Shown here: positions 4,036-53,177 of the stretch, one piece after another
How the letters are laid out: the number at the start of each line of letters is the position of its first letter
How positions within the stretch are numbered: position 1 is the stretch's first letter
Assembly: GCF_019753045.1 (NCBI RefSeq)
Contig: NZ_JAIELN010000007.1
Location: 1 to 64,000, forward strand
DNA from: Hyphomicrobium sp.
GTDB lineage: Bacteria; Pseudomonadota; Alphaproteobacteria; Rhizobiales; Hyphomicrobiaceae
Length of the DNA stretch: 64,000 bases
Direction of reading: 5' to 3'
Position numbers and translations under genes: made by a program
Notes under the pieces: generated by a model
What the model was told of the DNA's origin: nothing
The model's input: the letters and a program-made list of their open reading frames with translations, nothing else
The model's database searches: none

Positions 4036-4061
4036 CAAATAAAGTCGCAGGAGGCTAGACG
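4032..4061 (+). promoter_or_regulatory. putative promoter for the tRNA cluster
   Basis: A perfect -35 hexamer TTGACA (4032-4037) is followed 18 bases later by TAGACG as a weak -10. It is the best sigma70-type match near the tRNA genes and would drive them and the gene at 4553. The -10 lies inside an operator-like inverted repeat (4041-4063), which suggests repression. Confidence 0.5.
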
Positions 4062-4063
4062 AT
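4041..4063. promoter_or_regulatory. operator-like 23-bp inverted repeat (copy 1)
   Basis: Left arm AAAGT and right inner arm GGCTAGAC match the recurring phage motif AAAGT-N13-ACTTT; the last three bases of the right arm are degenerate. It covers the putative -10 of the tRNA promoter. Confidence 0.45.
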
Positions 4064-4193
4064 AGCCATCGCGAGAGGGGCGCCCAATCGGTCTCCATGG
4101 AGCTGATTGCCCTTTTCGTAGGTACATAATTTCGACGCGGCTTCGGCCGCATCAAGGACAACTGCCTTCAATGTTTCGACCAACCCCAATGAC

Positions 4194-4237
4194 GCATCAC
4201 CTCTGGCGCCGCTAATTGCGCGGCGACTGGGTGATGC
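4194..4237 (+). other. long stem-loop immediately before tRNA-Pro
   Basis: Arms GCATCACC and GGTGATGC enclose a second stem (GCCGC/GCGGC) around the loop TAATTGC. It ends 7 bases before the tRNA-Pro gene. It could be a processing signal for the tRNA precursor or a leader structure. The remainder of 4064-4244 shows no gene, only a small GCGGC/GCCGC hairpin near 4140. Confidence 0.35.
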
Positions 4238-4244
4238 TGTCTAT

Positions 4245-4321
4245 CGGGGTGTAGCTCAGCATGGAAGAGCATCCGCGTCGGAAGCGGAGGGCCGTTGGTT
4301 CAAATCCAGCCGCCCCGACCA
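4245..4321 (+). tRNA. tRNA-Pro (anticodon CGG)
   Basis: A complete 77-base cloverleaf with encoded CCA. The acceptor stem CGGGGTG pairs with CGCCCCG, the D arm is GCTC/GAGC, the anticodon stem TCCGC/GCGGA holds loop GTCGGAA, and the T arm is GTTGG/CCAGC. The C1-G72 pair is typical of proline tRNAs. It reads CCG, a frequent codon in this GC-rich phage. Confidence 0.93.
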
Positions 4322-4369
4322 ATTTCTCAACCCCCAGACTTTGAGCGCTGCGCTGTCGCGCGCCGCTGT

Positions 4370-4445
4370 GCGGGTGAGGTGTAACGGTTCTGCATTACGG
4401 TCTCCAAAACCGTCGGATTGGGTTCAATTCCCAGCACCCGTGCCA
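4370..4445 (+). tRNA. tRNA-Trp (anticodon CCA)
   Basis: A 76-base cloverleaf with encoded CCA. The acceptor stem GCGGGTG pairs with CACCCGT (G1-U72 wobble), the anticodon stem ACGGT/ACCGT holds loop CTCCAAA, the T stem is TTGGG/CCCAG and the discriminator is G, as usual for tRNA-Trp. The D stem is weak (GTGT/GCAT). It is the second tRNA of the phage cluster. Confidence 0.88.
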
Positions 4446-4454
4446 ATTCAGTTT

Positions 4455-4531
4455 AGCAGAGTAGAGCAGCGGCCCAGCTCGACGCGCTCATAACGCGTAG
4501 GTCGTGGGTTCAAATCCCACCTCTGCAACCA
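4455..4531 (+). tRNA. tRNA-Met (CAT), initiator-like
   Basis: A 77-base cloverleaf with encoded CCA. Acceptor AGCAGAG faces CTCTGCA, so base pair 1-72 is an A/A mismatch. The D stem is GAGC/GCTC (A11-U24), the anticodon stem ACGCG/CGCGT holds loop CTCATAA, and the T arm is GTGGG/CCCAC. The unpaired 1-72 position, A11-U24, three G-C pairs next to the anticodon loop and A73 are features of initiator tRNAs rather than elongator Met or Ile2 tRNAs, although the usual GGG/CCC order in the anticodon stem is GCG/CGC here. Confidence 0.85.
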
Positions 4532-4552
4532 TCATCGAAAGGATCGCCTCGC

Positions 4553-4903
4553 ATGAGCCTTGACGAAATAATCGCCCCCTTCATCGGCAAGGGCATCACC
4601 GACGCGGAGCTCGTTGATGACGAGATCCGGCTGACTTTTCTCACAGGTGAAACGCTGGAGCTGCGGGATGCCGGCCCCGCCGAGAGCGTAGGCCGCTACA
4701 TCACGGCCAACGACGATATGAAGGATCTCAACGGCTACAACCTCGCGGCCATCACCCTTACGCGGGGCGATGACACGCCGGGCCCTGGCGAGGCGCACGA
4801 GATCTGCTTTCTCGAGATCCGCACCGACTGCAGCTTCGTGACGCTCGTCAAATGCAATGGCCACCTCGGTGGCTTCGGGCTCGCAGCGAACGTCCGCCAC
4901 TAG
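4553..4903 (+). CDS. small phage protein, possibly DUF7448-like
   Basis: 116 acidic residues, mostly predicted beta strand. The run ESVGRY...DLNGYNL and the later FLEIRTDCSFVTLVKCNGH recall a family of small phage proteins (DUF7448) with unknown function; I give this from memory of the pattern. The start has a GAAAGGA ribosome site. It directly follows the tRNA cluster and is probably co-transcribed with it. Confidence 0.7.
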   Translation: MSLDEIIAPFIGKGITDAELVDDEIRLTFLTGETLELRDAGPAESVGRYITANDDMKDLNGYNLAAITLTRGDDTPGPGEAHEICFLEIRTDCSFVTLVKCNGHLGGFGLAANVRH

Positions 4904-4923
4904 CCCGGTCCACGGCCCCATTC

Positions 4924-5307
4924 TCAGCCGAACCTCCGCATGAAGGCCGCCGCTTCGGCGTGGTTCGGGAAATCATAGATCACCCGCACCCGCCCACCAC
5001 TCACCACCGGCACCGGCCGCAACGACGACGCGACTGGCGTTGGCGCCGGAGAGGGATCGTTCGTCCGCGTCACCAGCGAGACGACCTTCGGCACTGGCGC
5101 GGCGGTCGCCGTCTCGATCTCGCCAGCGGCGCGGCGGCGCGCGATCGTCTCTTCGCACCAGAGCTCGGCGCGGCGCTGATCGTCCTTGGCGTAACTGCCG
5201 TCAGGTTGGGCGAACTTCTTTGTCGCCTTCGCAATCAGGGCGTGGTCATAGCCGAGCCGCCCGCGCTTGGCGGTCAGCTTCAGGATCATCTTCGATTGTC
5301 CTCGCAT
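4924..5307 (-). CDS. hypothetical protein, basic N-terminus
   Basis: 127 residues. The ATG at 5307 is preceded by AAAAGGAGAG, so I prefer it to the in-frame ATG at 5367. The first 60 residues are basic and helical, the middle is Ala/Pro/Val-rich and probably disordered, and the end (VRVIYDFPNHAEAAAFMRRF) looks like a short folded strand-helix unit. It is a single minus-strand gene converging on the gene ending at 4903. Confidence 0.6.
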   Translation of the reverse strand: MRGQSKMILKLTAKRGRLGYDHALIAKATKKFAQPDGSYAKDDQRRAELWCEETIARRRAAGEIETATAAPVPKVVSLVTRTNDPSPAPTPVASSLRPVPVVSGGRVRVIYDFPNHAEAAAFMRRFG

Positions 5308-5461
5308 AGAGGCTCTCCTTTTACTCGAACGCATCCGCGTCATCAGCGGACGGACGAATAAGGACACGGGGCCGGGTAGCTGTCAAATCATAGCTTATTA
5401 AAACGAAGCGACGACCAGACTAAAATAAAAGCCTGCCAAATCAGTGGCATGAGGAACGTCG

Positions 5462-5484
5462 AAAGTTTTCTTCATAAAAACTTT
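5462..5484. promoter_or_regulatory. operator-like 23-bp inverted repeat (copy 2)
   Basis: Perfect outer arms AAAGT and ACTTT separated by 13 bases; inner arms TTTTC and TAAAA also pair in part. It lies in the divergent gap between the genes starting at 5307 (minus) and 5538 (plus). The rest of 5308-5537 is comparatively AT-rich and shows no gene. Confidence 0.5.
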
Positions 5485-5537
5485 CGCCGAACTGCGGCAA
5501 CATTGCGATGACATCTTCAGCTTTCGAGAGGATCAGG

Positions 5538-5765
5538 ATGAGTGACAGCACCGAACCTGTGAAAACCGTTATCGCCGTCAACATTGCGCACCGCTATGTG
5601 CTGCTCGACGACGACACCGTGCATGAGATCCGCGCTTTGCTGGACGACGAAAAGGAAGAGACCAGCGACCTCGAGGAGGCCGAAACCTGCGTCGTGTTCT
5701 GGCAGACCGGCGGCTGGTCGGAGCTACCGATCCGCGATCTCGACCTCGACCAGGTCCTGCACTAG
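5538..5765 (+). CDS. small acidic hypothetical protein
   Basis: 75 residues, strongly acidic (DDEKEETSDLEEAE). The ATG at 5538 has a GAGAGG ribosome site; another ATG at 5508 in frame has none. It follows an operator-like repeat. Small acidic early phage proteins sometimes mimic DNA or bind host enzymes, but nothing here proves that. Confidence 0.6.
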   Translation: MSDSTEPVKTVIAVNIAHRYVLLDDDTVHEIRALLDDEKEETSDLEEAETCVVFWQTGGWSELPIRDLDLDQVLH

Positions 5766-5807
5766 GATCAGCTTGGGAACGGCCGCACTGCCAAAGGGCG
5801 ACGGCCA

Positions 5808-6047
5808 ATGAAGATCAAGGACTTTCTTATTCGCGGCCGAGAGCTTTATGCCGTCTGCCACGGCAACCACGGCTTTCTCGGCGGCGCGCGGCGCATCCCG
5901 ATCGACCTGTCGGACCTTGATCCCGAGATGGATCATGAGGAGCTTCGCGGCAAACTGCGCTGCACTGTGTGCGGGACGAAGGACCCGCGCACGATCCTGC
6001 TGATCAAGCAGACCGACCGGCAGATGCGCCAAGGGCGGCAGCGCTAG
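5808..6047 (+). CDS. small hypothetical protein with CxxC pair
   Basis: 79 residues. CHGNHG near residue 17 and CTVCG near residue 52 give Cys/His positions that could hold a zinc ion. The C-terminus is basic (RQMRQGRQR). It follows the gene at 5538 by 42 bases and converges with the minus-strand island. No family recognised. Confidence 0.6.
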   Translation: MKIKDFLIRGRELYAVCHGNHGFLGGARRIPIDLSDLDPEMDHEELRGKLRCTVCGTKDPRTILLIKQTDRQMRQGRQR

Positions 6048-6050
6048 GCG

Positions 6051-6221
6051 CTATTCCTTTTGCAGGATCTCCTCGACCTGCTTGCGAGAAAGCAGCGATT
6101 GCTTGCCAGCAAGGATCGCCTCGGCGTCCAAGATCACATCCCAGAGAGCGTGCATTGGACCGACGGCACTTGCTTTGGCGCGGGCACATTTTGTTGCGGT
6201 TCGAAGTTCTTCATCCGTCAT
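6051..6221 (-). CDS. small hypothetical protein
   Basis: 56 residues from the ATG at 6221, which has a GAGAGG ribosome site; longer in-frame starts lack one. It is an all-helical protein ending in LLSRKQVEEILQKE. It is the last gene of the minus-strand island that begins at 9309. Function unknown. Confidence 0.55.
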   Translation of the reverse strand: MTDEELRTATKCARAKASAVGPMHALWDVILDAEAILAGKQSLLSRKQVEEILQKE

Positions 6222-6231
6222 CGCAGCCCTC

Positions 6232-6477
6232 TCAGTGCACTTGCTTGGGGTCCGCTTTGATCGGGCGCCACTGGCCGTCGACGATGCCAATCTCGCCATG
6301 GCCGACGCATATCCCGCACCTGTCGCCGGGGAGCAGCTTTACCTCTTCCTTCTCGCCGCCATCGACAGGCGCGTGCGTGAAGGAGATGGGACGGGCGAGG
6401 ATGCCCGTGCCGTCGCAGTGCGGGCAAGGTTTCGACGGCATCTCGATCTCATCGCTGCCCGGTAGAGGGATCTTCAT
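6232..6477 (-). CDS. small zinc-finger protein, DnaJ-type CxxCxGxG repeats
   Basis: 81 residues. CPHCDGTG (near residue 18) and CGICVGHG (near residue 54) match the CxxCxGxG zinc-binding repeats of the DnaJ central domain, but with only two repeats. Such proteins can bind zinc and unfolded proteins. It sits in the minus-strand island of small genes between the portal and minor head genes. No J domain is present. Confidence 0.72.
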   Translation of the reverse strand: MKIPLPGSDEIEMPSKPCPHCDGTGILARPISFTHAPVDGGEKEEVKLLPGDRCGICVGHGEIGIVDGQWRPIKADPKQVH

Positions 6478-6515
6478 TCCAAGTTGCCTTTCCAGACATA
6501 GTCAAAGGAGGTTGC

Positions 6516-6614
6516 ATGGCCCCGCATGCGTTCGGATCGCTTCTCGCAATCCTGTTTGTCGTCGGTATCGGCGTCTTTCTGATAGCCTGCATTCACGGCA
6601 TTCACAGGCGATGA
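6516..6614 (+). CDS. 32-residue single-pass membrane micro-protein
   Basis: Begins MAPHAFGSLLAI and continues as one unbroken hydrophobic helix (about residues 8-26) before ending GIHRR. A strong ribosome site, AAAGGAGG, lies 5 bases before the ATG. It is transcribed against its neighbours. Its size and single helix would fit a membrane toxin, a small holin or an inhibitor; no assignment is possible. Confidence 0.55.
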   Translation: MAPHAFGSLLAILFVVGIGVFLIACIHGIHRR

Positions 6615-6615
6615 G

Positions 6616-7780: not shown

Positions 7781-7783
7781 TTC

Positions 7784-9331: not shown

Positions 9332-9354
9332 GAAGTTAAAGTAAGCTAGATTTA
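9332..9354. promoter_or_regulatory. operator-like inverted repeat (copy 3a, weak)
   Basis: Left arm GAAGT and inner arm GCTAG match the recurring motif; the right arm ATTTA is degenerate. It lies 24 bases before the stronger copy at 9356 and 23 bases upstream of the minus-strand gene starting at 9309. Confidence 0.35.
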
Positions 9355-9355
9355 A

Positions 9356-9378
9356 AGAGTATCACCTTCCGAGACTTT
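9356..9378. promoter_or_regulatory. operator-like inverted repeat (copy 3b)
   Basis: AGAGT and ACTTT arms 13 bases apart, with inner ATCA...CGAG as in the copy at 44058. It lies 21 bases before the minor head protein start at 9399, in the divergent gap. Confidence 0.5.
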
Positions 9379-11016: not shown

Positions 11017-11039
11017 AAAGTTAAGCGTTGCTTAACCGC
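11017..11039. promoter_or_regulatory. operator-like inverted repeat (copy 4), CtrA-like core
   Basis: AAAGTTAAGC and GCTTAACCG arms around GTT; the outer right arm is degenerate. The core TTAA-N7-TTAAC is also the consensus of the host cell-cycle regulator CtrA. It lies in the divergent gap 10926-11301, 92 bases from the minus-strand gene. Confidence 0.45.
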
Positions 11040-11301: not shown

Positions 11302-11634
11302 ATGTCGGTCAGGAACGGTGGGGGTCGCCTGCAATGGCCGGAGCCGCGCAAGGCTTCGCCGGAGTATCAGAGGCTGAGCCGAACGGACGAGGACCATCTC
11401 GTCGACACGATGAACCGCGTGGCCGTCCTGGAGACGGACCACGTCGAGCTGAAATCCCGGGTCGAGGACCTGGAGCAAATTCGCGAGACGGCGACGGACG
11501 CGGTCAAGTGGCTATGGAACGAGGTGCTGCGCTTCGTCCTGGGCGTCCTGTTCATCTGGCTGCTGGTCAGGTTCGGAAAGATGACGGCCGAACAAGCGGC
11601 CGAGTTCGTCAAAGCCATTTTAAGCGGTGGGTGA
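11302..11634 (+). CDS. small membrane protein with coiled coil
   Basis: 110 residues. Residues 27-70 form a charged coiled-coil-like helix (HLVDTMNRVAVLETDHVELK), and residues 73-90 form a transmembrane helix (VLRFVLGVLFIWLLVRF). The stop overlaps the GTG start of the next gene by four bases. Layout and size resemble haemolysin XhlA-like phage membrane proteins, but lysis genes exist elsewhere, so the function is open. Confidence 0.7.
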   Translation: MSVRNGGGRLQWPEPRKASPEYQRLSRTDEDHLVDTMNRVAVLETDHVELKSRVEDLEQIRETATDAVKWLWNEVLRFVLGVLFIWLLVRFGKMTAEQAAEFVKAILSGG

Positions 11635-12104
11635 GCAAGCGCACGCCTGGCCAGATGTTTCTGGAACCCGTTCTCTTCGTGTGCGCGGTGTTCCTGATCT
11701 CCTGCTTCACCGTCAAGCTGATGTCGAAAGTCGAGCCGGCAATGGTGTTCCGCAACCTCGTTTTTGTCGAGGCCGGACCGCTCAAAGCCCGGCAGACGGT
11801 GCATCTGTCGTTCGACTACGACAAGCGCGCCGACTGCGCCCCGCCGCACGGTTCGGGTGACTTTTATTTTCGCATCTACTCCCGCGACCCCGATGGCAGC
11901 TATCGTCATTTCATCAGAGTCGACGTCGGCAATGCCGCGCTCGAGGCCGCCGGCCAGGATCTGCACGCCACCATCGACATCGATCTACCGGATCTCGTAT
12001 CCGGCGTTTATGCGTTGGCGGTGCGTGGCGTCTTCCAGTGCGAAGGCGAGTGGACATCGCAGACCATCAACCCCGAAGCGCTGCCGTTCCGCATTGGCGT
12101 CTGA
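11631..12104 (+). CDS. membrane-anchored beta-rich protein
   Basis: 157 residues from the GTG at 11631, coupled to the preceding gene (GTGA overlap). One N-terminal transmembrane helix (LEPVLFVCAVFLISCFTVKL, about residues 11-30) is followed by an Ig-like, strand-rich domain with four cysteine-containing loops and the ending FRIGV. Topology predicts the domain on the outer side of the membrane. Together with the previous gene it forms a two-gene envelope unit of unknown function. Confidence 0.65.
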   Translation: MSKRTPGQMFLEPVLFVCAVFLISCFTVKLMSKVEPAMVFRNLVFVEAGPLKARQTVHLSFDYDKRADCAPPHGSGDFYFRIYSRDPDGSYRHFIRVDVGNAALEAAGQDLHATIDIDLPDLVSGVYALAVRGVFQCEGEWTSQTINPEALPFRIGV

Positions 12105-12151
12105 GGTCGTTGCTTTCGCGGCACGCTGACGATCCGGCGGCGTGGCACCGA

Positions 12152-12174
12152 AAAGTCAAGGTTGACGAGACTTT
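12152..12174. promoter_or_regulatory. operator-like inverted repeat (copy 5)
   Basis: Perfect AAAGT and ACTTT arms 13 bases apart, with inner CAAGG/CGAG. It lies in the 203-base gap before the gene at 12308; the rest of that gap shows no gene. Confidence 0.5.
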
Positions 12175-12307
12175 TGCACTTGGCTACCAAGAACCAACCG
12201 TTGCCGTCGCGCCGTAGGACAACGTCCCGTGCCTACGCGTTCGTTTTTGGCCCCCCTAGAAACGAAAATCCGCTGACGGCAACGGTGCTTATTTGGCTTA
12301 AGGCAGC

Positions 12308-21923: not shown

Positions 21924-23099
21924 ATGACGATCGCCTTCCCGTATTCCTCGACCATCGGCGCCAAGGCGCGGATGGATCGCGCCCGGTTTCAGGACGGCTT
22001 CGCGAAGGGCACTATCGCCTTCGCCGCCCAGCCCTCCAACAACGATACCATGGCCATCGCCGGCTCGACCTTCACCTTCAAGTCGTCGGCAGCGTCGGGA
22101 CTGCAGTCCAACATCGGCGCCTCCATCGACGCCTCCATCGACGCGGCGATCGCGGTTCTCAACGCCTCCGCCGACGCCAACATCGTCAAGTGCAAATATC
22201 GGCGCAAGGGCGGCGCGGTCGCGACCGGCAACATCGCCTTCGCCGCCAACCCGGCGAATAACGATACGGTCACGATCAACGGCGTCGCCATCACCTTCAA
22301 GTCGGCGAACCCGACCGGCAATCAGGTACTGATCGGCGCCAGCCTCGATGCTACGCTCGACAGGCTCGCCGACTTCCTCAATGCCTCAGCCAACGCGTCG
22401 CTGACGCCGGCGCTCTACGGCATTGGGACGCCGGTTGCCGCGACCGGTTCGTTCACGTTCTCGCAGAACCCGGCGAACAACGACACGATCACCATCGGCG
22501 GCACAGTCGTGACATTCAAGACGTCCGGCGCCACCGGCAACCAGCTCAACATCGGAGCGGATCTCGCCACCACGCTGACGGCGCTGAAAAACTTCCTCAA
22601 TGCCTCGGCCGATGCCAACGTGTCGAAGTGCACGTATGGGTCCGATGCCACGCACCTCTCCATCACGGCGAAAACCGGAGGCATCTCCGGCAACGCCATC
22701 ACGCTCGACTATGCATCTACCGCCGTATCGGCTCGCTCGGCCGCGACACTGACCGGCGGCAAGAGCAAGCTTTCGGTTCAGGCTCTTGTTCCCGGCGCTG
22801 CCGGCAACGCCTTCACGCTGGCGGCCTCGGCCGCGACCGCATCGGGGTCGACCCTGGCCGGCGGCACGTCTCTGCTCGAGGTGATCGCCAAGGTGGCCGG
22901 TTCGGCTGCCAACGCGCTGACCTTGGCGGCGTCCGTCGCAACGGTGTCGGCGGCAACGCTGGTCGGCGGCGACAGTCGCCGCACGCGCTGGGGCAGCCGC
23001 ACGGCAGGCAATCGCTTCGAGCCCGTCGATCGCTCGCGCTGGGCAACCCGCATGGGTTCGGCGCGCTGGGTGTGGACGCCTGGCGCCTACTACCCTTGA
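21924..23099 (+). CDS. repeat-built virion surface protein
   Basis: 391 residues, low in charged residues. Three tandem units of about 64 residues (about 29-92, 102-165, 175-238) share NPANNDTITIGG...FKT and a helix ending in LNASA. Three shorter units of about 36 residues (243-352) share GNAFTLAAS...LxGG. The end is Arg/Trp-rich. Such beta-strand repeats are common in phage fibres or capsid and tail decorations. It lies between the PAAR and wedge genes, where fibre or baseplate proteins are expected. Confidence 0.72.
   Translation: MTIAFPYSSTIGAKARMDRARFQDGFAKGTIAFAAQPSNNDTMAIAGSTFTFKSSAASGLQSNIGASIDASIDAAIAVLNASADANIVKCKYRRKGGAVATGNIAFAANPANNDTVTINGVAITFKSANPTGNQVLIGASLDATLDRLADFLNASANASLTPALYGIGTPVAATGSFTFSQNPANNDTITIGGTVVTFKTSGATGNQLNIGADLATTLTALKNFLNASADANVSKCTYGSDATHLSITAKTGGISGNAITLDYASTAVSARSAATLTGGKSKLSVQALVPGAAGNAFTLAASAATASGSTLAGGTSLLEVIAKVAGSAANALTLAASVATVSAATLVGGDSRRTRWGSRTAGNRFEPVDRSRWATRMGSARWVWTPGAYYP
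22008..22637 (+). repeat. three in-frame tandem repeats of about 64 codons
   Basis: Units begin near 22008, 22227 and 22446. Each encodes a strand-loop-strand (xIAFxxxPxNNDTxxIxGxxxTFK) and a helix (IGAxxxxxxxxLxxxLNASAxA). Similarity is clear at the protein level and partial at the DNA level, which indicates old internal duplication. Confidence 0.75.
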
Positions 23100-23108
23100 C
23101 GCTCCCCG

Positions 23109-23151
23109 CTGCCGGCTTGCCGGCAGTCCCCCGAGGGCTCGGTCCCTCGGG
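23109..23151 (+). terminator. two GC-rich stem-loops after the repeat protein gene
   Basis: CTGCCGGC/GCCGGCAG with a 2-base loop is followed by CCCGAGGG/CCCTCGGG. No T-tract is present. They occupy the 156-base gap before the gene at 23256, which shows no other feature. Confidence 0.45.
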
Positions 23152-23255
23152 CATCCCATTCCGCGACAAGTCCCTGCTTCGCGGTTTAACGGCCTCGGAT
23201 CGATCCCCTCCCGGTCCGGGGCCGTTCGCGTTTCTTGAACCTCAAGAGGATTGCC

Positions 23256-23519
23256 ATGCCGCTCCCGAGCAACGAACCCAAGCCCATTCGGCAGACCTAT
23301 GTCGTGACCGAGGACGGCTTCGTCTATGGCTCCTGGGCCAAACGGGGAAAGACGTTCGCGCTCTATCCCATCCAGGCCGAACACTTCGTGCAGAGCGGCC
23401 GCATGGCGCTCGCCACGAGCGCCGACGTTCCGTCGAAGCCGGTCAAGCCCGCCACCAACATCGCCGCACCCGATGCCGATAAAAAGCGGTCGATCTCGTC
23501 GGCGAATGATCCCGGTTGA
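23256..23519 (+). CDS. small hypothetical protein
   Basis: 87 residues from the ATG at 23256 (AGAGGA upstream). The first half reads as a small beta unit (QTYVVTEDGFVYGSWAKRGKTF); the second half is Lys/Ala/Pro/Ser-rich. It sits just before the wedge gene. No family recognised. Confidence 0.62.
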   Translation: MPLPSNEPKPIRQTYVVTEDGFVYGSWAKRGKTFALYPIQAEHFVQSGRMALATSADVPSKPVKPATNIAAPDADKKRSISSANDPG

Positions 23520-23541
23520 TCCCTGATGGAGGCCCGATGCC

Positions 23542-23880
23542 ATGGCAGACTCGCGCGGCCTCAATCGTCTGACCGGACACGTCATCTCCGACTGGGATGA
23601 CGTTTCGCAATCGATCAAGGACATTCTGACGACGCCGGTTGGAACGCGGGTTCTGCGCCGTGACTACGGCAGCCGCGTTCCCGATCTTCTCGATCACCCG
23701 GCCAATCCCGACACCATCTTGGACTTCACGTTCGCGGTTGCCGAAGCGCTGGCGTGGGAGCCACGCGTCAAATTTCTGTCCCTCGATTTCTCGGCCGGAG
23801 CCGACGGACATATCACCTTCGTCGTGGAGGTCATCTACCTCCGCACCGGCCTGACCAACTACGTCTACGTCGTTGTCTAA
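23542..23880 (+). CDS. baseplate wedge protein W (T4 gp25 / P2 gpW family)
   Basis: 112 residues. QSIKDILTTPVGTRVLRRDYGS and the later VAEALAWEPRV are the defining blocks of the gp25-like lysozyme-fold wedge family, which links sheath and baseplate. In P2 it is followed by J and I; here it is followed at once by the sheath gene. Confidence 0.9.
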   Translation: MADSRGLNRLTGHVISDWDDVSQSIKDILTTPVGTRVLRRDYGSRVPDLLDHPANPDTILDFTFAVAEALAWEPRVKFLSLDFSAGADGHITFVVEVIYLRTGLTNYVYVVV

Positions 23881-24004
23881 GCCTCTCTGATCCGCCCACG
23901 CGGACCTTCCCCCTCAACAGCGAAACGGCAGAACTCGAGAGCCCACGAGGGCTTTGGGGCGCGCCGTCGCGCGTCCCCGAAACCTTGATCGTGGAGACCA
24001 GCCA

Positions 24005-25471
24005 ATGGTTGCTAACGACACTTACTTGCACGGTATTGACATCGTCGAAATCGACGATGGCATCCGGCCCATCCAGACGGCCACCTCTTCGATCATCGGT
24101 CTGATCGGCACCGCGCCCGATGCCGATGAAGATGTTTTTCCGCTGAACGAGCCCGTGCTCATCATCGGCGATCGCACCAAGGCGGCGCTGCTCGGCGCCA
24201 CCGGCACGCTGCCGGCAGCGATGCGCGATATCCTGTCGGTGTTCGGCGCACCCGTCGTGCTGGTGCGCGTCGATGCAGGCCAGACGACGCCGCAAACCTG
24301 GTCCAACCTGATCGGCGATCCGACCACCAAGACCGGCGTCTACGCCTTCCTAACCGCCTGGCACAAGGTCAAGGCCAAGCCGCGCATGATCATCGCGCCG
24401 GGTTGGACGGGACTGCGTCCGTCGAACGGCATCAAACAGATCAACGTCGGCACCGCCGGTCAGTACGACAAGGTGCCGACGATCTCCTTCACCAACGCGC
24501 AAGGCGATACGGGCGCTGGTGCAGCGGCTGTCGCGCATGTCGTTGCGGGCGCACTGTCCTCGATCACGGTCACCAATCCCGGCTCCGGCTACACCTCGCC
24601 GCCGACGGTGGTGATCACCCGTGCCGCCGGCGACGGCAAGAGCTCGAGCGGCGCGGCGACGGCGGTTCTCGGCAAAGCCAAGAACCCGGTCGCGGCGGCC
24701 ATCGAAGGCATCCTGCCGAACTTGCGCGCCATCGCTCTGATCGAAGGTCCGAACATCTCCAACACCGAGGCGATCGACTTCCGTCAGGATTTCGGCACCT
24801 CGCGGACGATGATCATCGATCCCAACGTCCTCGTCTGGGATATTACGGTCTCCGATTACGTCTCGCGCTCGGGCGTTGCCTTGGCGGCTGCGATGCAGTC
24901 GTACATGGATAACACCTACGGCTTCTGGTGGAGCTTCTCGAACCAGGCGGTTCCCAATATCGGCGGCATCGACCGGCCAGTGACGTGGGATCTCGAAGAT
25001 CCGACGACGGACGCCAACTTCCTGAACCAAAACCAGGTGGCGACGATCGTTCGCGTCGACAGCCAGAGCCAGGGCGGCTTCCGCTTCTGGGGCTTGCGCA
25101 CGACATCGGCCGATCCGCTGTGGGCCTTTCTCTCGGTCCGGCGCACCGCCGACATGATCTACGACTCGATCGTCCAGGGCTTCCTTTGGATGCTCGACCG
25201 GCCGTTCTCGGCGCAGCTCATTATCGATGGCGTCGAGACGGTGAATTACTACCTGCGCTCGCTGAAAGCGCGCGGCGCCACCATCGACGGCTCGGCGTGG
25301 ATCGATCCGAACTTGAACTCCATCGACCAGTTGGTCGCGGGCAAGCTTCGCATTGAATTCGACTTCGAGCCGCCGGCCCCGATCGAGCGCATCACCTTCG
25401 GCGCTCGCCGGAACCCGAACTACTACGACGTCATGATCTCCGACGTGCTGCGCGACCTCCCGACGCTCTGA
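24005..25471 (+). CDS. contractile tail sheath protein (P2 FI-type) with an inserted domain
   Basis: 488 residues, about 90 longer than the usual P2-type sheath. The N-terminal ASSIIGLIGTAP-like block, the PVVLVRV strand, MIIAPGWTG, and the C-terminal PIERITFGARRNPNYYD are sheath features. Residues about 141-224 interrupt the core with a Gly/Thr-rich stretch containing ITVTNPGSGYTSPPTVVIT, a small beta repeat common in phage surface proteins. The core resumes at NPVAAAIEGILPNLRAIALI. GGAG precedes the ATG. Confidence 0.92.
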   Translation: MVANDTYLHGIDIVEIDDGIRPIQTATSSIIGLIGTAPDADEDVFPLNEPVLIIGDRTKAALLGATGTLPAAMRDILSVFGAPVVLVRVDAGQTTPQTWSNLIGDPTTKTGVYAFLTAWHKVKAKPRMIIAPGWTGLRPSNGIKQINVGTAGQYDKVPTISFTNAQGDTGAGAAAVAHVVAGALSSITVTNPGSGYTSPPTVVITRAAGDGKSSSGAATAVLGKAKNPVAAAIEGILPNLRAIALIEGPNISNTEAIDFRQDFGTSRTMIIDPNVLVWDITVSDYVSRSGVALAAAMQSYMDNTYGFWWSFSNQAVPNIGGIDRPVTWDLEDPTTDANFLNQNQVATIVRVDSQSQGGFRFWGLRTTSADPLWAFLSVRRTADMIYDSIVQGFLWMLDRPFSAQLIIDGVETVNYYLRSLKARGATIDGSAWIDPNLNSIDQLVAGKLRIEFDFEPPAPIERITFGARRNPNYYDVMISDVLRDLPTL

Positions 25472-25537
25472 TGATGGTCGCTGCCGACACGCCAGCGCGA
25501 GCCGGCCGGCAGTGACGCTCCACCAACTCAAAACCCC

Positions 25538-25568
25538 AGGCCGCCACTCGTGAGAGGGCGGCCTTTTT
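25538..25568 (+). terminator. intrinsic terminator between sheath and tube genes
   Basis: AGGCCGCC and GGCGGCCT with an 11-base loop, followed by TTTTT. It lies 17 bases before the tube start, so it could set the ratio of sheath to downstream tail transcripts. Confidence 0.65.
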
Positions 25569-25584
25569 CATTGGAGAAGCCCGC

Positions 25585-26130
25585 ATGGCACGCATGGATA
25601 ATATGCTGCGGTACTTCGCGATCTGGTTGAACGGTCGCGACTACCTCGGCGAAGGCATCGAACTCAAGATGCCCGACTTGAAGATCAAGACCGATGACGT
25701 TCGCGGCGGCGGCATGGATGCTCCGATCGAAGTCGACCTCGGCATGGACAAGCTCTCCGCCGAATGGAAAGTCACGTCCTACGACGAGGCGCTCTTTTCG
25801 CAATGGGGCTTGCGCCGCAGCCAAGTTTCGCGCCTGACCTTCCGAGGCCATTTGGAAGGTCAGAACCCGCAGGGCTCCAACGGTCAGGCCAACATCGCTC
25901 GCGTCATGGCGGTGATGGATGCCCGCATCATGGAACTCAACAAGGAAACGTGGGCGCCCGGCAAGCATGCCGTCATCAACGTCCGCGCCGCTGTCGACTA
26001 CTTCAAGCTGATCTTCAACGACCGGCCCGTCATTGAGATCGACGTCTTGGGGTTCAAGCGCTCGATCGGCGGCATCGATCAGCTGGCGGACGCTCGCGTC
26101 TCGCTCGGCATCACCAACTCCACCGGCTAA
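25585..26130 (+). CDS. tail tube protein (P2 FII-type)
   Basis: 181 residues, close to the family length. The blocks KMPDLKIKTDDVRGGGMDAPIEVDLGMD (from residue 30) and the Glu-Trp-Lys-Val strand with the later RGHL match P2 FII/Mu M tube proteins. It polymerises into the inner tail tube around the tape measure. GGAG precedes the ATG. Confidence 0.92.
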   Translation: MARMDNMLRYFAIWLNGRDYLGEGIELKMPDLKIKTDDVRGGGMDAPIEVDLGMDKLSAEWKVTSYDEALFSQWGLRRSQVSRLTFRGHLEGQNPQGSNGQANIARVMAVMDARIMELNKETWAPGKHAVINVRAAVDYFKLIFNDRPVIEIDVLGFKRSIGGIDQLADARVSLGITNSTG

Positions 26131-40991: not shown

Positions 40992-41309
40992 TTAAAGGTC
41001 TCCGGACGACCCGCCGCCGCCAAAATCGCCGCCGCCAGCCGAGAACGTGTCATTGGATGACACGTCAATCGCGGACGAGGCGGCAGCGTCCGACGTCACG
41101 GCATCGAGAATGGTCTCGAGCAGCAGTGCGGTTCCAAGGGCGTCGAAACCATCGTCGGTGCCCTGGGCCGGTCGATCGCTCGGGCTCGGCGGCTGAATGC
41201 TGACGCCATGCCTCTTAAGCATCTGCGTGGCGGCGGAGCGTGTCAGGGGCGGCAAGCCCTTTCTGCGCCGTGCGGTATTGAGGCGGTCGAGGTCCTGATG
41301 CGAAATCAT
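40992..41309 (-). CDS. hypothetical protein with Gly-rich tail
   Basis: 105 residues. The first 40 residues (DLDRLNTARRRKGLPPLTRSAATQMLKRHG) suggest a small DNA-binding helical domain; a Ser/Ala/Asp middle leads to a tail GGGDFGGGGSSGD that resembles tails of some Hyphomicrobiales proteins. It is the first gene of its block, 19 bases after operator copy 6. Confidence 0.65.
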   Translation of the reverse strand: MISHQDLDRLNTARRRKGLPPLTRSAATQMLKRHGVSIQPPSPSDRPAQGTDDGFDALGTALLLETILDAVTSDAAASSAIDVSSNDTFSAGGGDFGGGGSSGDL

Positions 41310-41327: not shown

Positions 41328-41350
41328 AAAGTCTAGCATGGCTTAACTTT
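41328..41350. promoter_or_regulatory. operator-like inverted repeat (copy 6, best palindrome)
   Basis: Arms AAAGTCTAGC and GCTTAACTTT around ATG: 8 of 10 positions pair. It lies in the 92-base gap between two minus-strand blocks, 19 bases upstream of the gene starting at 41309. Confidence 0.6.
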
Positions 41351-44057: not shown

Positions 44058-44080
44058 AAAGTATCATATACCGAGACTTT
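44058..44080. promoter_or_regulatory. operator-like inverted repeat (copy 7)
   Basis: Perfect AAAGT and ACTTT arms 13 bases apart; inner ATCA...CGAG as in the copy at 9356. It lies directly upstream of the gene starting at 44044. A further short repeat AAAGT/ACTTT with a 3-base gap follows at 44090-44102. Confidence 0.58.
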
Positions 44081-49153: not shown

Positions 49154-49176
49154 AAAGTCTAGCTAGATGAGACTTT
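49154..49176. promoter_or_regulatory. operator-like inverted repeat (copy 8)
   Basis: Perfect AAAGT and ACTTT arms 13 bases apart, inner CTAGC...TGAG. It lies 32 bases upstream of the gene starting at 49122. Confidence 0.58.
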
Positions 49177-49220
49177 GCTGGACGCCTGACAAGCCCGCAA
49201 TTTGTGACGGCTGTGGGTAA

Positions 49221-49243
49221 TCGGTCAAGCACAGCTTAACTGT
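49221..49243. promoter_or_regulatory. operator-like inverted repeat (copy 9, degenerate ends)
   Basis: Inner arms GTCAAGC and GCTTAAC around ACA match the motif well; the outer bases are TCG and TGT. It lies 44 bases from copy 8 in the same gap and touches the stop of the gene ending at 49243. Confidence 0.45.
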
Positions 49244-49575
49244 TACTCCGTGGACTCATCATCCGGATCCCAGCACACAACCTCCGTCAGGTTGGCGGTC
49301 TGCACGGCATGCCAGCCGGAGATCGGAAAGGGACCTTGATCGATGACCTTCTGCCGCCAGCGCCGGCACTCCGAGTCGGGCTCGGAGACGACGACCGCCG
49401 GCCCCGCATCGAAATTATAGCGCGCCCAATGGTAGGGCTCGTACGTCAACTGAAAGTTGGTCCAGGCAAACGCAAGCAGGAGGACACCGCCGAGAAGCCA
49501 ATCGCAGGCGCGTCCGGCCCAGCAGCGCTGACGCACGGAGGTGCGGGTGAGCCAGAAAGTGCGCAGCCGCTCCAT
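49243..49575 (-). CDS. small membrane protein
   Basis: 110 residues: a basic N-terminus, one transmembrane helix (WLLGGVLLLAFAWTNFQL, about 26-43), then an outer domain with three cysteines and an acidic end. Its start overlaps the ParB-like gene stop. Function unknown. Confidence 0.62.
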   Translation of the reverse strand: MERLRTFWLTRTSVRQRCWAGRACDWLLGGVLLLAFAWTNFQLTYEPYHWARYNFDAGPAVVVSEPDSECRRWRQKVIDQGPFPISGWHAVQTANLTEVVCWDPDDESTE

Positions 49576-50414
49576 CAGATTTTGTCCACGTCGAGACCGT
49601 CAATTTCCATTGTTTCTTGGACCGACTTGCGTCGCGCTACCGGCGACTTCGTTGCGAAGTTGTTCCAACCCCAAACGAGCATTTGAAAAGACCGTGCGCG
49701 GCCATTTCGCTCGCTTGTCCCTTTTTTCGCAATCCACTCCCGCGCAAAATGAGCCGCGTCGCCGGGATAGTTCGGAACCCCGGTTCTCAGGACCTCGGCA
49801 AATTCATCAGCGCGTTGGCGCTGACCAACGAGTTCAGCGGCGCAATAGTGCACTGCTGCAGCCATCGAGCGGCTAACCGCTCCACACGAAAGGCAGGTGG
49901 TAATCGAGTCATCCAGTCGCGGATGGCGACTGGACATCGCCTCCTGATCCAATGCCGTAATCTTCAGATACGAGGTGATGTTGGCGTTGCGGCTTTTGAT
50001 TGCATAAAGCGCCCGGACCGTGGCTGCGAATACAGCGGCATTGCGATGTCCAGCGAGGTGGGCATGATCGGCGTTGCTGCGCGTAATTCCAGTGTCGATC
50101 ACGGCCATCACCTTCTTGCGATCGAGCCCCCAAATAACCGGCGCCCGGATCGGCATTCTAGCTATGACGCACGCAGACAATCGATGCTGACCGTCGAGAA
50201 GCACTGGTGGGGTTTCATTGGAGAAGAGAATTGGACCGCCGATATCCTGCCATTCGCCGGCTTGGATCGCTCGTGCGATCGCGGCTGCGTGGTGTGGTCT
50301 AAACAAGCGATTGACGGTGTTGAAGTTCAACCACTCCGCCGCCATCTCCGGCGTGATGGTCTGATAATTTCCTGCGGCGTGTGGATGAAAAAGGTCGACG
50401 AGTTGTTGGTTCAT
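49575..50414 (-). CDS. ParB/Srx-fold protein
   Basis: 279 residues from the ATG at 50414, with AGGAG 8 bases upstream. LLDGQHRLSAC (72-82) is the ParB/sulfiredoxin-fold core, used for CTP or ATP binding and sometimes nuclease activity; residues 85-110 (APVIWGLDRKKVMAVIDTGI) continue this domain. The helical C-terminal part has no obvious parS-reading helix-turn-helix. Such proteins are common in phages with roles in partition, transcription or DNA cleavage. Two parS-like sites occur in the phage. Confidence 0.78.
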   Translation of the reverse strand: MNQQLVDLFHPHAAGNYQTITPEMAAEWLNFNTVNRLFRPHHAAAIARAIQAGEWQDIGGPILFSNETPPVLLDGQHRLSACVIARMPIRAPVIWGLDRKKVMAVIDTGITRSNADHAHLAGHRNAAVFAATVRALYAIKSRNANITSYLKITALDQEAMSSRHPRLDDSITTCLSCGAVSRSMAAAVHYCAAELVGQRQRADEFAEVLRTGVPNYPGDAAHFAREWIAKKGTSERNGRARSFQMLVWGWNNFATKSPVARRKSVQETMEIDGLDVDKI

Positions 50415-50447
50415 TGGAGGCTCCTGCTCGGATGACGGTTCATGCAA

Positions 50448-50470
50448 AAAGTATCAGCAGGCTTGACTTT
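50448..50470. promoter_or_regulatory. operator-like inverted repeat (copy 10)
   Basis: Perfect AAAGT and ACTTT arms 13 bases apart, with right arm GGCTTGACTTT. It lies 34 bases upstream of the ParB-like gene. Confidence 0.58.
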
Positions 50471-50529
50471 GCACTTAACCCGCTTTCGTTTTATCCACGT
50501 AACAATGAACTCTAGATCCAGTGAGACAG

Positions 50530-50892
50530 TTACGCCGCCACCTCATCATCAAGGTGATCGAGTGCCGAGACGACCAGGTTGAGCTTGTGCTCGACGTGGC
50601 CGACATGGAGGCCCTTACGCTGCAGGCGTTCGATCTCCGCCTGCATCAGAGCGCCGGCACGCACGAGATCGCGGCGCTTGTTCTTCGGCTTCCACCACAT
50701 CGGGTCCCACGGCCAGCAGATCGGGCAACCGTCGGCGCGCAAGGATGGTTCGCGATCGGTGCCGCGCAGGAAGTAGCACATGGCGGCATCCAACATCTCG
50801 CCGTCCGCATGCGTGTCGTCGTGTTCCGGCGTCCAACCTTCGACGGTTTTCTGCCGGGCTCTCTCGTCACAGATTTGGGCGATCGCGCTCAA
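50530..50892 (-). CDS. conserved-type phage protein
   Basis: 120 residues. QKTVEGWTPEHDDTHADGEM, a WPWDPMWWKPK block and RRDLVRAGALMQAEIERLQR form a pattern found in many phages and prophages; the function is unknown. It ends the first early block. Confidence 0.78.
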   Translation of the reverse strand: MSAIAQICDERARQKTVEGWTPEHDDTHADGEMLDAAMCYFLRGTDREPSLRADGCPICWPWDPMWWKPKNKRRDLVRAGALMQAEIERLQRKGLHVGHVEHKLNLVVSALDHLDDEVAA

Positions 50893-51250
50893 GGTTGAAC
50901 AAAGCCTCCGGTGTGTCGATACGGTCAGCGCCCGGCCGCTCGCCGAGACGGAGCTGCCGCGTGGTGGAGTTGCGCGCTGAAACGAGCAGACAGATGTGTT
51001 GGGTATAACTCGCGCGCGGGCTCGGCCTACGGATCGAGTCGGTAACGATGAGGCGAATGCCGCGAAATGTCGGAAACGTCCGGTCTTCGAACTTGCGCCA
51101 AATCACCTCGTCAAACATGCGGAACCACGCGTAGGTTTCGCTGTGGACGATCACCATGTCGACGTCCCACTTCCAGCGTTCGTCGCCGAGACCGTCCTTA
51201 TGCATCCAGACATCGTCGCGGTGCTTCGGAGTGAGGTGCGCATCCGTCAT
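50867..51250 (-). CDS. hypothetical phage protein
   Basis: 127 residues, rich in Trp, Asp and Arg in the first half (DVWMHKDGLGDERWKWDVDM) and basic near the end. It overlaps the next gene by 26 bases. Family unknown. Confidence 0.58.
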   Translation of the reverse strand: MTDAHLTPKHRDDVWMHKDGLGDERWKWDVDMVIVHSETYAWFRMFDEVIWRKFEDRTFPTFRGIRLIVTDSIRRPSPRASYTQHICLLVSARNSTTRQLRLGERPGADRIDTPEALFNLERDRPNL

Positions 51251-51468
51251 GCGGGATCGGCCTCCGGCAGTTTTTCATCGGGGTCGATGTTCGACACCTC
51301 GCTCATCGCTATGAAGTGCCCGTTGAGCGCATCCCACACTCCCCAGTGATCGGAGGGCCTCACAATCGGTTTCTCGGTCAAGGAGCGCGCCTGATAGCGG
51401 AAACTCATGCCGCCCGGCTCGTCGTAGCGGTGATAGACGCGCATCAGGTTGGCGGTCGAAAAGGTCAC
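51247..51468 (-). CDS. small hypothetical protein
   Basis: 73 residues from a GTG at 51468 that overlaps the upstream stop (GTGA). Strand-rich (LMRVYHRYDEPGGMSFRYQA) with an acidic end. Function unknown. Confidence 0.55.
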   Translation of the reverse strand: MTFSTANLMRVYHRYDEPGGMSFRYQARSLTEKPIVRPSDHWGVWDALNGHFIAMSEVSNIDPDEKLPEADPA

Positions 51469-51935
51469 GGATTGATCTCGCGATTGAAGGCCTGGCACTT
51501 GGCGAAGAACTTCTGGTGCGTCGGAATGTCGATGGCGCCGTCGCGCACGGCTTCCGGATAGAGCTTACGGCAGGCCTTGTCTTTCCATTCGCCCGGCAGG
51601 CGGTCGAAGTTGGAAAACACGGCGCGCACGAACTCGCCTTGTGGTGGACGTCCCTCGGCCGGCATTTTGCTGTTCTGATCGAAGGCGGTGAAATAGTCGG
51701 CGATCGATGGCTCGATCTTGGCAGCCACTTTTGGCTTTGATGGCTGAGCCGGAACCTCGGCGAACGCTTCGCAGGCGAAGTCGCCGGGGAGGCAAGCCTT
51801 CGCCGGCAGTGGCGTCAGGAAAGCGGCGGCGAGCGCGACCAGGGGAAGGGCCAGGGGACGCCGGACGCGCAACTGCACCGGCGTCTTTGACTGGACAAGG
51901 ACGGGGTGAGCAACAGCACGGACAAGCACTAACAT
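51465..51935 (-). CDS. exported hypothetical protein
   Basis: 156 residues. A basic N-terminus and hydrophobic stretch (PLALPLVALAAAFLTPLPAKA) form a signal peptide with cleavage likely after AKA near residue 47. The mature part has four cysteines (CLPGDFAC and two later), suiting an oxidising periplasm. Function unknown; early export suggests an envelope target. Confidence 0.64.
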   Translation of the reverse strand: MLVLVRAVAHPVLVQSKTPVQLRVRRPLALPLVALAAAFLTPLPAKACLPGDFACEAFAEVPAQPSKPKVAAKIEPSIADYFTAFDQNSKMPAEGRPPQGEFVRAVFSNFDRLPGEWKDKACRKLYPEAVRDGAIDIPTHQKFFAKCQAFNREINP

Positions 51936-51947
51936 CTCTCCTATCGG

Positions 51948-52430
51948 TTATGGCGACTCGGGCTGCAAGTCATTTTTCGCAGCTGCCGGTTTTCGAGTTT
52001 TGGCGTTGCGTTGAAAGCGCAAAATGTCGTCCGGCGAACCGCCGGCGATGATGACGAAAATGTTGCGGCGACGCGCTTGCTCGATCATGCCGCGCGTGCC
52101 GCGTCCACCCTCGAAAGCGACGACGGCATCGGGCTTGAAGATCTGCAGGAGCTCGACATTGCGACGCATGCCGGCGGCCTTGCCCCATTGCTTCCAGTCG
52201 GCCACGAACGGCCTGAGCAATTCATGCCCACGCTTGGCGGCCCACACGCGCGCCAGCGTGTCGGCGCCTCTAGCATCGCCGGTCGCGACCGTGATCAGGC
52301 GCTTGTCCTTGACGATCTCATCCAGCGCCGCGTCGAGGTAATCCTGGTTGGTGAAATCGCGACCACCACAGACGGCGAGCCGATAGGGCCGGTCGGGTTC
52401 GACTGTCGGAAAGAGATCGTCTTGCATCAT
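51948..52430 (-). CDS. SLOG-family nucleotide-binding protein (DUF2493)
   Basis: 160 residues. YRLAVCGGRDFTNQDYLDAA at the start, TVATGDARGADTLARVWAAK in the middle and DAVVAFEGGRGTRGMIEQAR later are the three blocks of the DUF2493/YspA branch of the SLOG superfamily, relatives of DprA and TIR-linked SLOG proteins that bind nucleotides or nucleotide-derived signals. The last 30 residues are a basic extension. Confidence 0.85.
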   Translation of the reverse strand: MMQDDLFPTVEPDRPYRLAVCGGRDFTNQDYLDAALDEIVKDKRLITVATGDARGADTLARVWAAKRGHELLRPFVADWKQWGKAAGMRRNVELLQIFKPDAVVAFEGGRGTRGMIEQARRRNIFVIIAGGSPDDILRFQRNAKTRKPAAAKNDLQPESP

Positions 52431-52732
52431 TCACCCGCCATCTGGTTGATGATGGCGGTAGCGCGCTCAAGCCCTTCATTGGTCCGCTGCATGGCGTCGG
52501 CGAGAGCAAAGCGGTTGTTGGCGATCTGCACCAGTCTTCCGCGCCACACGAGCCGGAGCAGGCAATCCCGCGCCGAGCCTTCCTTGGTCCAACCCACGTG
52601 ATCGGCGATCGCCCGAAATGACGGAAAGGGTCGCGCGGCGGCGAGCTCGTCGACAACGAAGGCCAGCACCACGGCCTGCTGTGCCGGCAGTGGGCCCGGA
52701 CGATATTTGGGTTTGGTGAATGCCCGGCTCAT
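52427..52732 (-). CDS. LexA-like winged-helix protein
   Basis: 101 residues. QQAVVLAFVVDELAAARPFP then SFRAIADHVGWTKEGSARDC and LLRLVWRGRL fit the winged-helix DNA-binding domain of LexA (PxxREIAxxxG...HLxxLxxxG). The self-cleaving peptidase domain is absent. Lying at the start of the early array next to two operator copies, it is a candidate regulator of the phage, although the link is only positional. Confidence 0.7.
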   Translation of the reverse strand: MSRAFTKPKYRPGPLPAQQAVVLAFVVDELAAARPFPSFRAIADHVGWTKEGSARDCLLRLVWRGRLVQIANNRFALADAMQRTNEGLERATAIINQMAGE

Positions 52733-53103
52733 TCGGCGGCATCCTGCTGCTCAGGAGGGCGGCGCACATAGCCGTCGGCCTCGCCTTCGTGGACGTAAAT
52801 CTTGACGGTCAGCTGGCCTGGATTGCCGGCGCGGCGGAGGCCGTATTCGAAGACGACCATCTCGGGCGGGAAGGCGGTCTCGCGCACCAGCTTGTCGACC
52901 CAGGCGAGGGCGGTCAGCGCCACCTGCGTATCCATATTCGCCGGCACCTCGAGGTCGACGGTCACCCGGTCGCCCCGGCGGTAGTCACGGACCTTTTCAA
53001 TGCTCGTCGCGCGCCGGCAATCATCGCGCCAGGCGTCATACATGCCCTGGCCCACCCGGACGGGCGCCGGGATTTCTATCAACTTGTAGGTGTGAAAGGC
53101 CAC
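52729..53103 (-). CDS. hypothetical protein, first gene of the early array
   Basis: 124 residues from a GTG at 53103; the frame stays open to 53184, but that start would overlap both operators. Beta-rich (YRRGDRVTVDLEVPANMDTQ, then MVVFEYGLRRAGNPGQLTVKI), with alternating strands, acidic end. It lies 28 bases from the tandem operator pair. Family unknown. Confidence 0.6.
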   Translation of the reverse strand: MAFHTYKLIEIPAPVRVGQGMYDAWRDDCRRATSIEKVRDYRRGDRVTVDLEVPANMDTQVALTALAWVDKLVRETAFPPEMVVFEYGLRRAGNPGQLTVKIYVHEGEADGYVRRPPEQQDAAE

Positions 53104-53130
53104 CGCGTCCGAACCCCCCGTCTTTGCTGG

Positions 53131-53153
53131 GAAGTTAAGCGCTGTTTGACTTT
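53131..53153. promoter_or_regulatory. operator-like inverted repeat (copy 11a)
   Basis: GAAGTTAAGC and GTTTGACTTT arms around GCT. First of a tandem pair 24 bases apart, 28 bases upstream of the first early gene. Confidence 0.58.
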
Positions 53154-53154
53154 T

Positions 53155-53177
53155 AAAGTCTAGCCTTGCTTGACCTT
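53155..53177. promoter_or_regulatory. operator-like inverted repeat (copy 11b)
   Basis: AAAGTCTAGC and GCTTGACCTT arms around CTT. Second of the tandem pair. Positions 53178-53453 between it and tRNA-Cys show no convincing gene and no integrase; this is the phage-host junction region. Confidence 0.56.

Follow-up and report, generated by a model that had tools for sequence, protein, structure and literature searches.

Results

A large prophage on three contigs

We analysed the first 64,000 nucleotides of contig NZ_JAIELN010000007.1 (C4:1-64000, hereafter the window) from the Hyphomicrobium sp. assembly GCF_019753045.1, where a 23-bp palindrome recurs between the genes of a prophage. The phage is temperate and contractile-tailed. 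Its prophage of about 147 kb is spread over three contigs of the 4.5-Mb genome (C8, C32 and C4; the pieces sum to about 146.6 kb), and the window holds about one third of it (Table 1). The window part carries genes for portal, major head, tail sheath and tail proteins and an endolysin. C32 (18,685 bases) contributes the large terminase gene and four copies of the palindrome, while C8, whose end falls inside phage genes, encodes a DnaB helicase, RecT, thymidylate synthase and the repressor region. Integration took place at a tRNA-Cys gene: a 45-nt exact part of the window's tRNA-Cys recurs within C8:147088-147153, beside the integrase gene. Both the integrase and the repressor genes are thus located on C8, outside the window.

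A 23-bp palindrome is confined to the prophage

The palindrome consists of two 9-bp half-sites 5 bp apart, each reading AAAGT followed by CTAG, CAAG, TAAG, CTCG, ATCA or a few others. A self-trained (refined) matrix has an information content of 24.5 bits. The inner positions are interdependent (mutual information between positions 7 and 8 of 0.33 vs 0.02 after shuffling); in 94 half-sites these two positions read TA, AA or TC, CA once and AC never. With this matrix, 47 sites scored above 14 in the 146.6-kb prophage, compared to a Markov expectation of 0.46 on average and 4 at most in 50 sequences. The 42.4 kb of host flank contained no site above 12 and two above 10.

The initial annotation had listed thirteen copies of AAAGT-N13-ACTTT in the window. 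Twelve of these stand and are the top twelve of the window, the one at 4041 as a weak copy, and the real set comprises 47 sites on three contigs. The sequence itself came out first in a matrix-free de novo search of all palindromes with 5-mer arms and gaps of 3-18, both in the window part of the prophage (6 vs 0.02 expected) and in C8 and C32, run separately (9 vs 0.03); it was absent from the top six palindromes of the host flanks. In its exact form it occurs in only 6 of the 13 listed sites, 5462 included, and the plain palindrome with up to two mismatches gave 19 matches in the window vs 8.8 expected (100 shuffles, largest 16). The place at 5462 was rejected as a member: its outer arms are exact but its inner arms read TTTTC/TTTTT, and it received a refined score of 2.4 (window rank 31). 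As an observation in its own right, AAAGTTTTCTTCATAAAAACTTT (window 5462-5484), with outer arms and without the inner ones, may form a hairpin.

A first matrix, built from only nine window sites and applied to the window and the C8 stretch, recovered 25 sites above 15 in the C8 stretch, while the mean over 20 mononucleotide-shuffled versions of the window and C8 together was 0.25. The C8 copies span 148.6 to 216.0 kb, as seen in a search of the genome itself. Vice versa, a matrix from 36 sites of C8 and C32, none from the window, returned twelve of the thirteen listed sites as the window's 12 best places; this matrix is partly independent, since its sites had initially been gathered with a matrix begun on window sites. 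Ten of the places scored at least 18.6, followed by 4041 (13.6), 49221 (13.0) and the next place at 11.7, which leaves a thin lower margin.

All 27 matches of the strict pattern AAAGTHWMR-N5-YKWDACTTT (at most one mismatch) in the host genome fell on the prophage contigs (C4 8, C8 16, C32 3), with two matches for the reversed pattern as control. The spread across the chromosome that would have spoken against a phage-wide regulon was thus not found. Across the genus, 21 further genomes gave 6 matches in total for the strict pattern vs 23 for the reversed control. That the phage gathered the sites of a host regulator is hardly conceivable, given that no strict site occurs elsewhere in the host genome and that the 21 genomes show no excess over the control. 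The operator sequence was not named in any of the titles or abstract openings listed by the literature searches, and among the papers listed for operator fragments none dealt with phage operators by title.

Table 1 Coordinates of the prophage, its candidate regulators and the window sites. Scores are from the refined matrix unless indicated; HTH, helix-turn-helix.
Feature	Location	Strand	Evidence and remarks
Prophage extent	C8:147088-221523; C32:1-18685; window 1-53498		three pieces
Integrase gene	C8:147172-148389		Phage_integrase 4.9e-26 (Pfam)
CI-like protein, 244 aa	C8:170989-171723 (L007:15990-16724)	minus	HTH_3 9.1e-13 and Peptidase_S24 1.5e-6, both above gathering score
YdaS/Cro-like gene	C8:171960-172241		divergent from CI-like gene; YdaS_toxin 9.8e-14; P22_Cro 0.043, below cut-off
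Recombinase-like protein	C8:183118-184062		Phage_int_SAM_1 3.1e-6; GerE 3.8e-5 (LuxR-type HTH); recalls MrpR
Weak operator copy	window 4041..4063		12.8; 13.6 with C8+C32 matrix; window rank 11-12
Operator	window 9332..9354		20.4; tandem with 9356 (24-bp spacing); upstream of Phage_Mu_F gene 9399 (Pfam)
Operator	window 9356..9378		23.5; ends 21 nt before gene start 9399
Operator	window 11017..11039		19.8; intergenic, late region
Operator	window 12152..12174		29.3; exact outer arms; intergenic, late region
Operator	window 41328..41350		32.5, window's best; begins 19 nt from gene start 41309 (minus strand)
Operator	window 44058..44080		26.1; begins 14 nt from ATG 44044 (minus strand)
Operator	window 49154..49176		29.9; begins 32 nt from gene start 49122 (minus strand)
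Weaker operator	window 49221..49243		15.0; 13.0 with matrix without window sites; 67 bp from 49154
Operator	window 50448..50470		27.4; begins 34 nt from ATG 50414 (minus strand)
Operator	window 53131..53153		25.9; begins 28 nt from gene start 53103 (minus strand); tandem with 53155 (24-bp spacing)
Operator	window 53155..53177		29.3; tandem with 53131; final site before attR
tRNA-Cys, attR side	window 53454..53527	minus	tRNA search

Sites tend to lie upstream of genes and to overlap promoter-like sequences

Coding share and gene positions were taken from a simple in-house gene caller, which missed genes such as that starting at 41309. Only four of the 47 sites lie mostly within called coding DNA, compared to a coding share of 82.5% in the prophage (binomial 2e-28), and one of the four overlapping genes looks spurious by eye. 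The intergenic placement proposed initially is thereby supported, and an equal density inside genes was not seen. Altogether, 31 of the sites precede a called gene by at most 150 nt. Among genes with an upstream gap of at least 50 nt, 34 of 110 have a site, while none do among the 160 genes whose gaps are shorter and leave hardly any room for one. Several sites form close pairs, with spacings of 24 bp (9332/9356 and 53131/53155), 26 bp (156528/156554 and 170875/170901) and 35 bp (171759/171794).

As claimed initially, sites head the five blocks of the early array, beginning 14, 19, 28, 32 and 34 nt from their starts. The starts themselves differ in standing: 44044 and 41309 are starts of listed open reading frames (ORFs), 53103 and 49122 are gene-caller starts inside longer ORFs, and 50414 is an ATG inside ORF 49575-50447. 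The weak copy at 4041 sits on the promoter-like sequence TTGACA-N18-TAGACG, as read from the sequence, about 180 nt upstream of phage tRNAs for Pro, Trp and Met. This phage-borne tRNA cluster (window 4245-4531) is possibly controlled by it.

Promoter-like sequences were scored at 36 of the 47 sites; the other 11 were left out because of short flanks or the lack of a called gene within 300 nt. With the -10 box set at the gene-proximal half-site, the score was on average 4.1 standard deviations above that of shuffled flanks in the direction of the gene and -0.4 in reverse. Independently of the offset, the best promoter overlapping the operator scored 6.85 vs 5.03 ± 0.34 (200 shuffles, maximum 5.70) and 4.84 when reversed. 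Against a less strict control that kept the operator, the promoter peaks showed a modest excess (15 vs 10.6 and 9 vs 4.3). These scores suggest a tendency of the sites to overlap with -10 boxes of promoter-like sequences that face a gene.

The initial annotation had likened the sites to repressor/stoperator systems. The likeness to a dispersed regulon was borne out, but most sites look like promoter operators rather than stoperators. If they were stoperators, bound repressor would halt elongating RNA polymerase instead of initiation. This would agree with the dispersal of sites in long transcription units and with the few (177412, 182436, 12152) that fall inside called genes or have no called start nearby. 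As the sites are palindromic and overlap gene-facing promoter-like -10 boxes beyond expectation, we regard this as improbable.

A candidate repressor is encoded in a CI/Cro-type switch

While the initial annotation called the regulator unidentified, a candidate can now be named. C8 encodes a CI-like protein (C8:170989-171723) opposite a YdaS/Cro-like gene, and two sites (171759 and 171794) lie between the two genes, one of them preceding the CI-like gene by 36 nt. P22 C2 was among the weak sequence matches of the CI-like protein in the PDB (1.8e-3); its C-terminal domain had no convincing match there (one, E 0.97). The first approximately 20 residues of the protein resemble the next 20 or so (ITAIGKRLRDPRK / LIAIGKRLKEARK), which may reflect a small tandem duplication or a true start further downstream.

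The searches yielded few relatives of this protein. None was found in IMG/VR, and the search of genome contigs gave one 55-residue match to the HTH at 32%. Eleven records of annotated phages matched; the one with the best coverage, from Pantoea phage PA-1, had 29% identity. Among 100 relatives and, at E 1e-12 or better, 397 genomes of the order, only the protein of a sister genome of the same genus, G019, exceeded 30% over most of the length.

Seven sequences were aligned, namely the CI-like protein, the G019 protein, the repressors of phages CobraSix and PA-1 and three distant relatives. In the CI-like protein and its G019 homologue, the Ser of the motifs GDSM and GKSM aligns with Ala and the Lys of FKKY with Arg; no Ala-Gly was aligned in either. 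We take the Ser and Lys of the aligned S24 repressors to be their catalytic residues. Because both are replaced, self-cleavage of the CI-like repressor appears unlikely, and its release probably needs another signal.

Sites and CI/Cro-type genes co-occur in other genomes

The G019 protein is the sole close homologue found (44% identity), and it shares SKQxIxHxE in the region of the recognition helix with the CI-like protein. A 200-kb stretch of G019 contains only four sites above 16, all within 4 kb around this homologue: a tandem pair (27.0 and 25.3, 26 bp apart), one site 24 nt before the homologue (16.1) and a fourth (18.8) preceding an excisionase-like gene (excise 1.5e-5, below cut-off). 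Away from the sites, a tblastn search of the same stretch with 270 prophage proteins matched a porin-like protein at a distance of about 96 kb (33%), and one further match was marginal. The 79-aa protein encoded at window 5808-6047 has a 91% identical counterpart of 69 aa at G019 C3:3424463-3424669, 34 kb from the repressor homologue.

Five IMG/VR records (G479-G483) were retrieved by the operator core alone and then read whole, and in three of these (G480, G482 and G483) the sites are beyond chance. G480 (GC 0.62) has two sites above 18, at 4611 and 5090 (0.0 expected), of which 4611 is located between a Cro-like gene (start 4582; P22_Cro 1.8e-8) and a divergent HTH_3 gene (start 4664). Both sites above 18 in G483 (GC 0.61; 22066 and 22099, 0.02 expected) are likewise positioned between a CI/Cro-type gene (start 21999) and a divergent HTH_3 gene (start 22132), one of them inside the spacer of a TTGACA-N17-TATATT promoter. 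G482 (IMGVR_UViG_3300010885_035971; GC 0.48) contains six sites at 22119-25720 (3.6 kb; L086-L087) where 0.08 are expected. Its copies form a longer palindrome, approximately AAAGTYWAGAC-N-GTCTTRACTTT, and several lie directly upstream of successive minus-strand ORFs; by its sequence, this record would be another virus with its own operator set.

More distant genomes gave less. The only two TCAAG-N5-CTTGA sites in 40 kb of G266 flank a homologue of 26% identity. The dispersed palindrome was not seen in the stretches of G198, G035 and G062, phages sharing few proteins such as portal or terminase, and only one site above 14 was present in 165 kb from 13 IMG/VR loci that carry portal or capsid relatives.

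These loci also bear on other readers of the sites. The sites could mainly belong to the Cro-like (YdaS-type) protein, with the CI-like protein reading other sequences or reading these second. Its gene stands divergently opposite the CI-like gene in the switch, and the Cro-like gene beside the G480 site encodes a protein with 42% identity to it over 50 aa. We consider this unlikely, as no relative of it was found in the G019 stretch by tblastn, where the sites adjoin the CI homologue. The two readings are not exclusive, given that CI and Cro read the same operators in lambdoid phages.

Another idea is that the sites serve partition by a ParB-like protein (C8:201851-202753; ParB_N 1.4e-25, HTH_ParB 6.5e-10) or are bound by the recombinase-like protein in analogy to MrpR. 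The latter protein has the domains for it, and a partial relative is encoded about 2.4 kb upstream of the G019 site pair. Neither is at all probable: a ParB relative was missing from the G019 stretch by tblastn, the G019 recombinase match stops before the HTH, and the switch sites of G480 and G483 adjoin CI/Cro-type HTH genes. Binding by a phage-encoded activator that turns on middle or late genes would fit sites that precede early units and some late ones. As the operator extends over the -10 region, a protein bound there would usually repress, and copies are located in the CI/Cro-type switch here as well as in G480 and G483, so that we give an activator slightly less credit still.

Other features of the prophage

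The ParB-like protein with an HTH domain is encoded in an integrated prophage, and C32 carries two shorter ParB_N-like proteins (C32:11057-11578 and 11628-12194; one tested against Pfam, the other recognized by eye). A porin-like gene (C8:149393-150664; by eye, without Pfam match) is located near the operator at 150849, and an outer-membrane-protein-like gene (C8:160066-160758; by eye) near that at 160674. A 75-aa protein from the minus strand at window 7981-8208 matches the end of the Fic/Doc domain, and a toxin-antitoxin pair is possible.

Discussion

Our analysis suggests that the dispersed palindromes are the operators of one master repressor of an approximately 147-kb temperate phage, most likely the CI-like protein; we hold this with good confidence. 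Confinement to the prophage and avoidance of coding DNA favour the phage-wide regulon with one dimeric regulator that was proposed initially. Observed directly were the motif, its restriction to the prophage, its placement with respect to genes and promoter-like sequences and its association with CI/Cro-type genes in other elements; we infer dimeric binding, the identity of the regulator and repression.

Several observations weigh against this reading. As no overlap was found between the ends of C8, C32 and C4, we infer the order C8-C32-C4 of the prophage pieces from the two att halves and the direction of the genes. In the promoter scoring, 80 offsets were scanned, several others of which reached 2.0-2.9 standard deviations and one, in reverse, 4.0. 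Two of the four G019 sites are weak (16-19), and the G019 element has more than the repressor in common with the prophage: near the sites, tblastn also matched the membrane-like protein of 448 aa and, with its N-terminal part, the recombinase-like protein (a 351-aa ORF, 37% over 83 N-terminal aa, upstream of the site pair). Neither Cro-like nor ParB-like relatives were found in the 200 kb. In G480, the match to the Cro-like protein exceeds that to the CI-like protein (27% over 48 aa), and therefore the sites could be read by the Cro-like protein or by both proteins. The G482 record, which may be a fragment, gave no CI-like match. G479 and G481 (GC 0.28-0.29) have 3 sites each vs about 1 expected and were counted as chance. 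The 3 sites above 15 in 40 kb of G266 are within background (mean 0.58, maximum 5 of 50), and the distant homologue loci L015, L016 and L058 were without clear site.

In the proposed master-repressor regulon, a repressor dimer would bind each 23-bp palindrome and thereby block RNA polymerase, since the operator half nearer the gene often coincides with the -10 box (TAGACT and variants) of a promoter that faces the downstream gene. In the lysogen, the early units would be shut in parallel, as would the gene of the repressor itself, the opposite Cro-like gene, parts of the late region and possibly the phage tRNAs. A more speculative extension, to which we assign only a small chance, is that a protease-less CI/S24 repressor went from a two-operator to a genome-wide switch. 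The approximately 47 graded sites would then act as a sensor by holding the repressor near its limit, and the units would be released in order of operator strength, not upon DNA damage but upon replication of the phage DNA, infection by a second genome or the action of an antirepressor.

CI-type repressors of lambda and P22 act at two operator regions. The candidate resembles them in its HTH_3 and S24 layout, its divergent Cro-like partner and the operators in the switch; unlike them, it would have dozens of operators, and its protease Ser and Lys are replaced by Ala and Arg. The repressor of Streptomyces phage phiC31 uses conserved inverted repeats as palindromic operators at several early promoters, and both repressor and operator sequence differ from those described here.

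Dispersed operators are known from three further systems. C1 of phage P1 has 22 operators dispersed over the genome of a temperate phage, likewise many sites under one repressor; these are 17 bp long and asymmetric (PMC8546580), unlike the 23-bp palindrome with about 47 sites and an HTH_3 and S24 candidate repressor found here. SPbeta MrpR (YopR), a master repressor with a tyrosine-recombinase fold, binds SPBRE, a 15-bp repeated intergenic element that was predicted in silico long before MrpR was found, and ten promoter regions are named (PMC10516654). Our prophage is similar in having a repeated intergenic element at promoter-like sequences and a candidate master repressor. The favoured candidate differs from MrpR in being of the HTH_3/S24 type, but a recombinase-like protein with an HTH is also present in the prophage and has a partial relative near the G019 sites. 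In Cluster A mycobacteriophages, the repressor sites are also spread through the genome, but are asymmetric, mostly in one orientation and mostly off promoters, and they block elongation (PMC6550527), whereas those described here are palindromic and overlap promoter-like sequences in the direction of the gene. By analogy, the regulon would act in the manner of those of P1 and SPbeta with their dispersed operators, without being assigned to either; in each of P1, SPbeta and Cluster A, the sites or the repressor differ from those found here.

The dispersed-operator layout is thus known from a few phages, while the operator sequence and a repressor apparently unable to cut itself look new. The prophage also illustrates that a window ending at a contig end can conceal the regulator. 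The operator sequence alone retrieved CI/Cro-type switches from other virus records; therefore, prophage-confined palindromes can serve to find master repressors. A single purified protein would test the whole regulon, in which a common repressor fold (CI and S24), its protease residues gone, appears to control a large prophage through about 47 palindromic operators.

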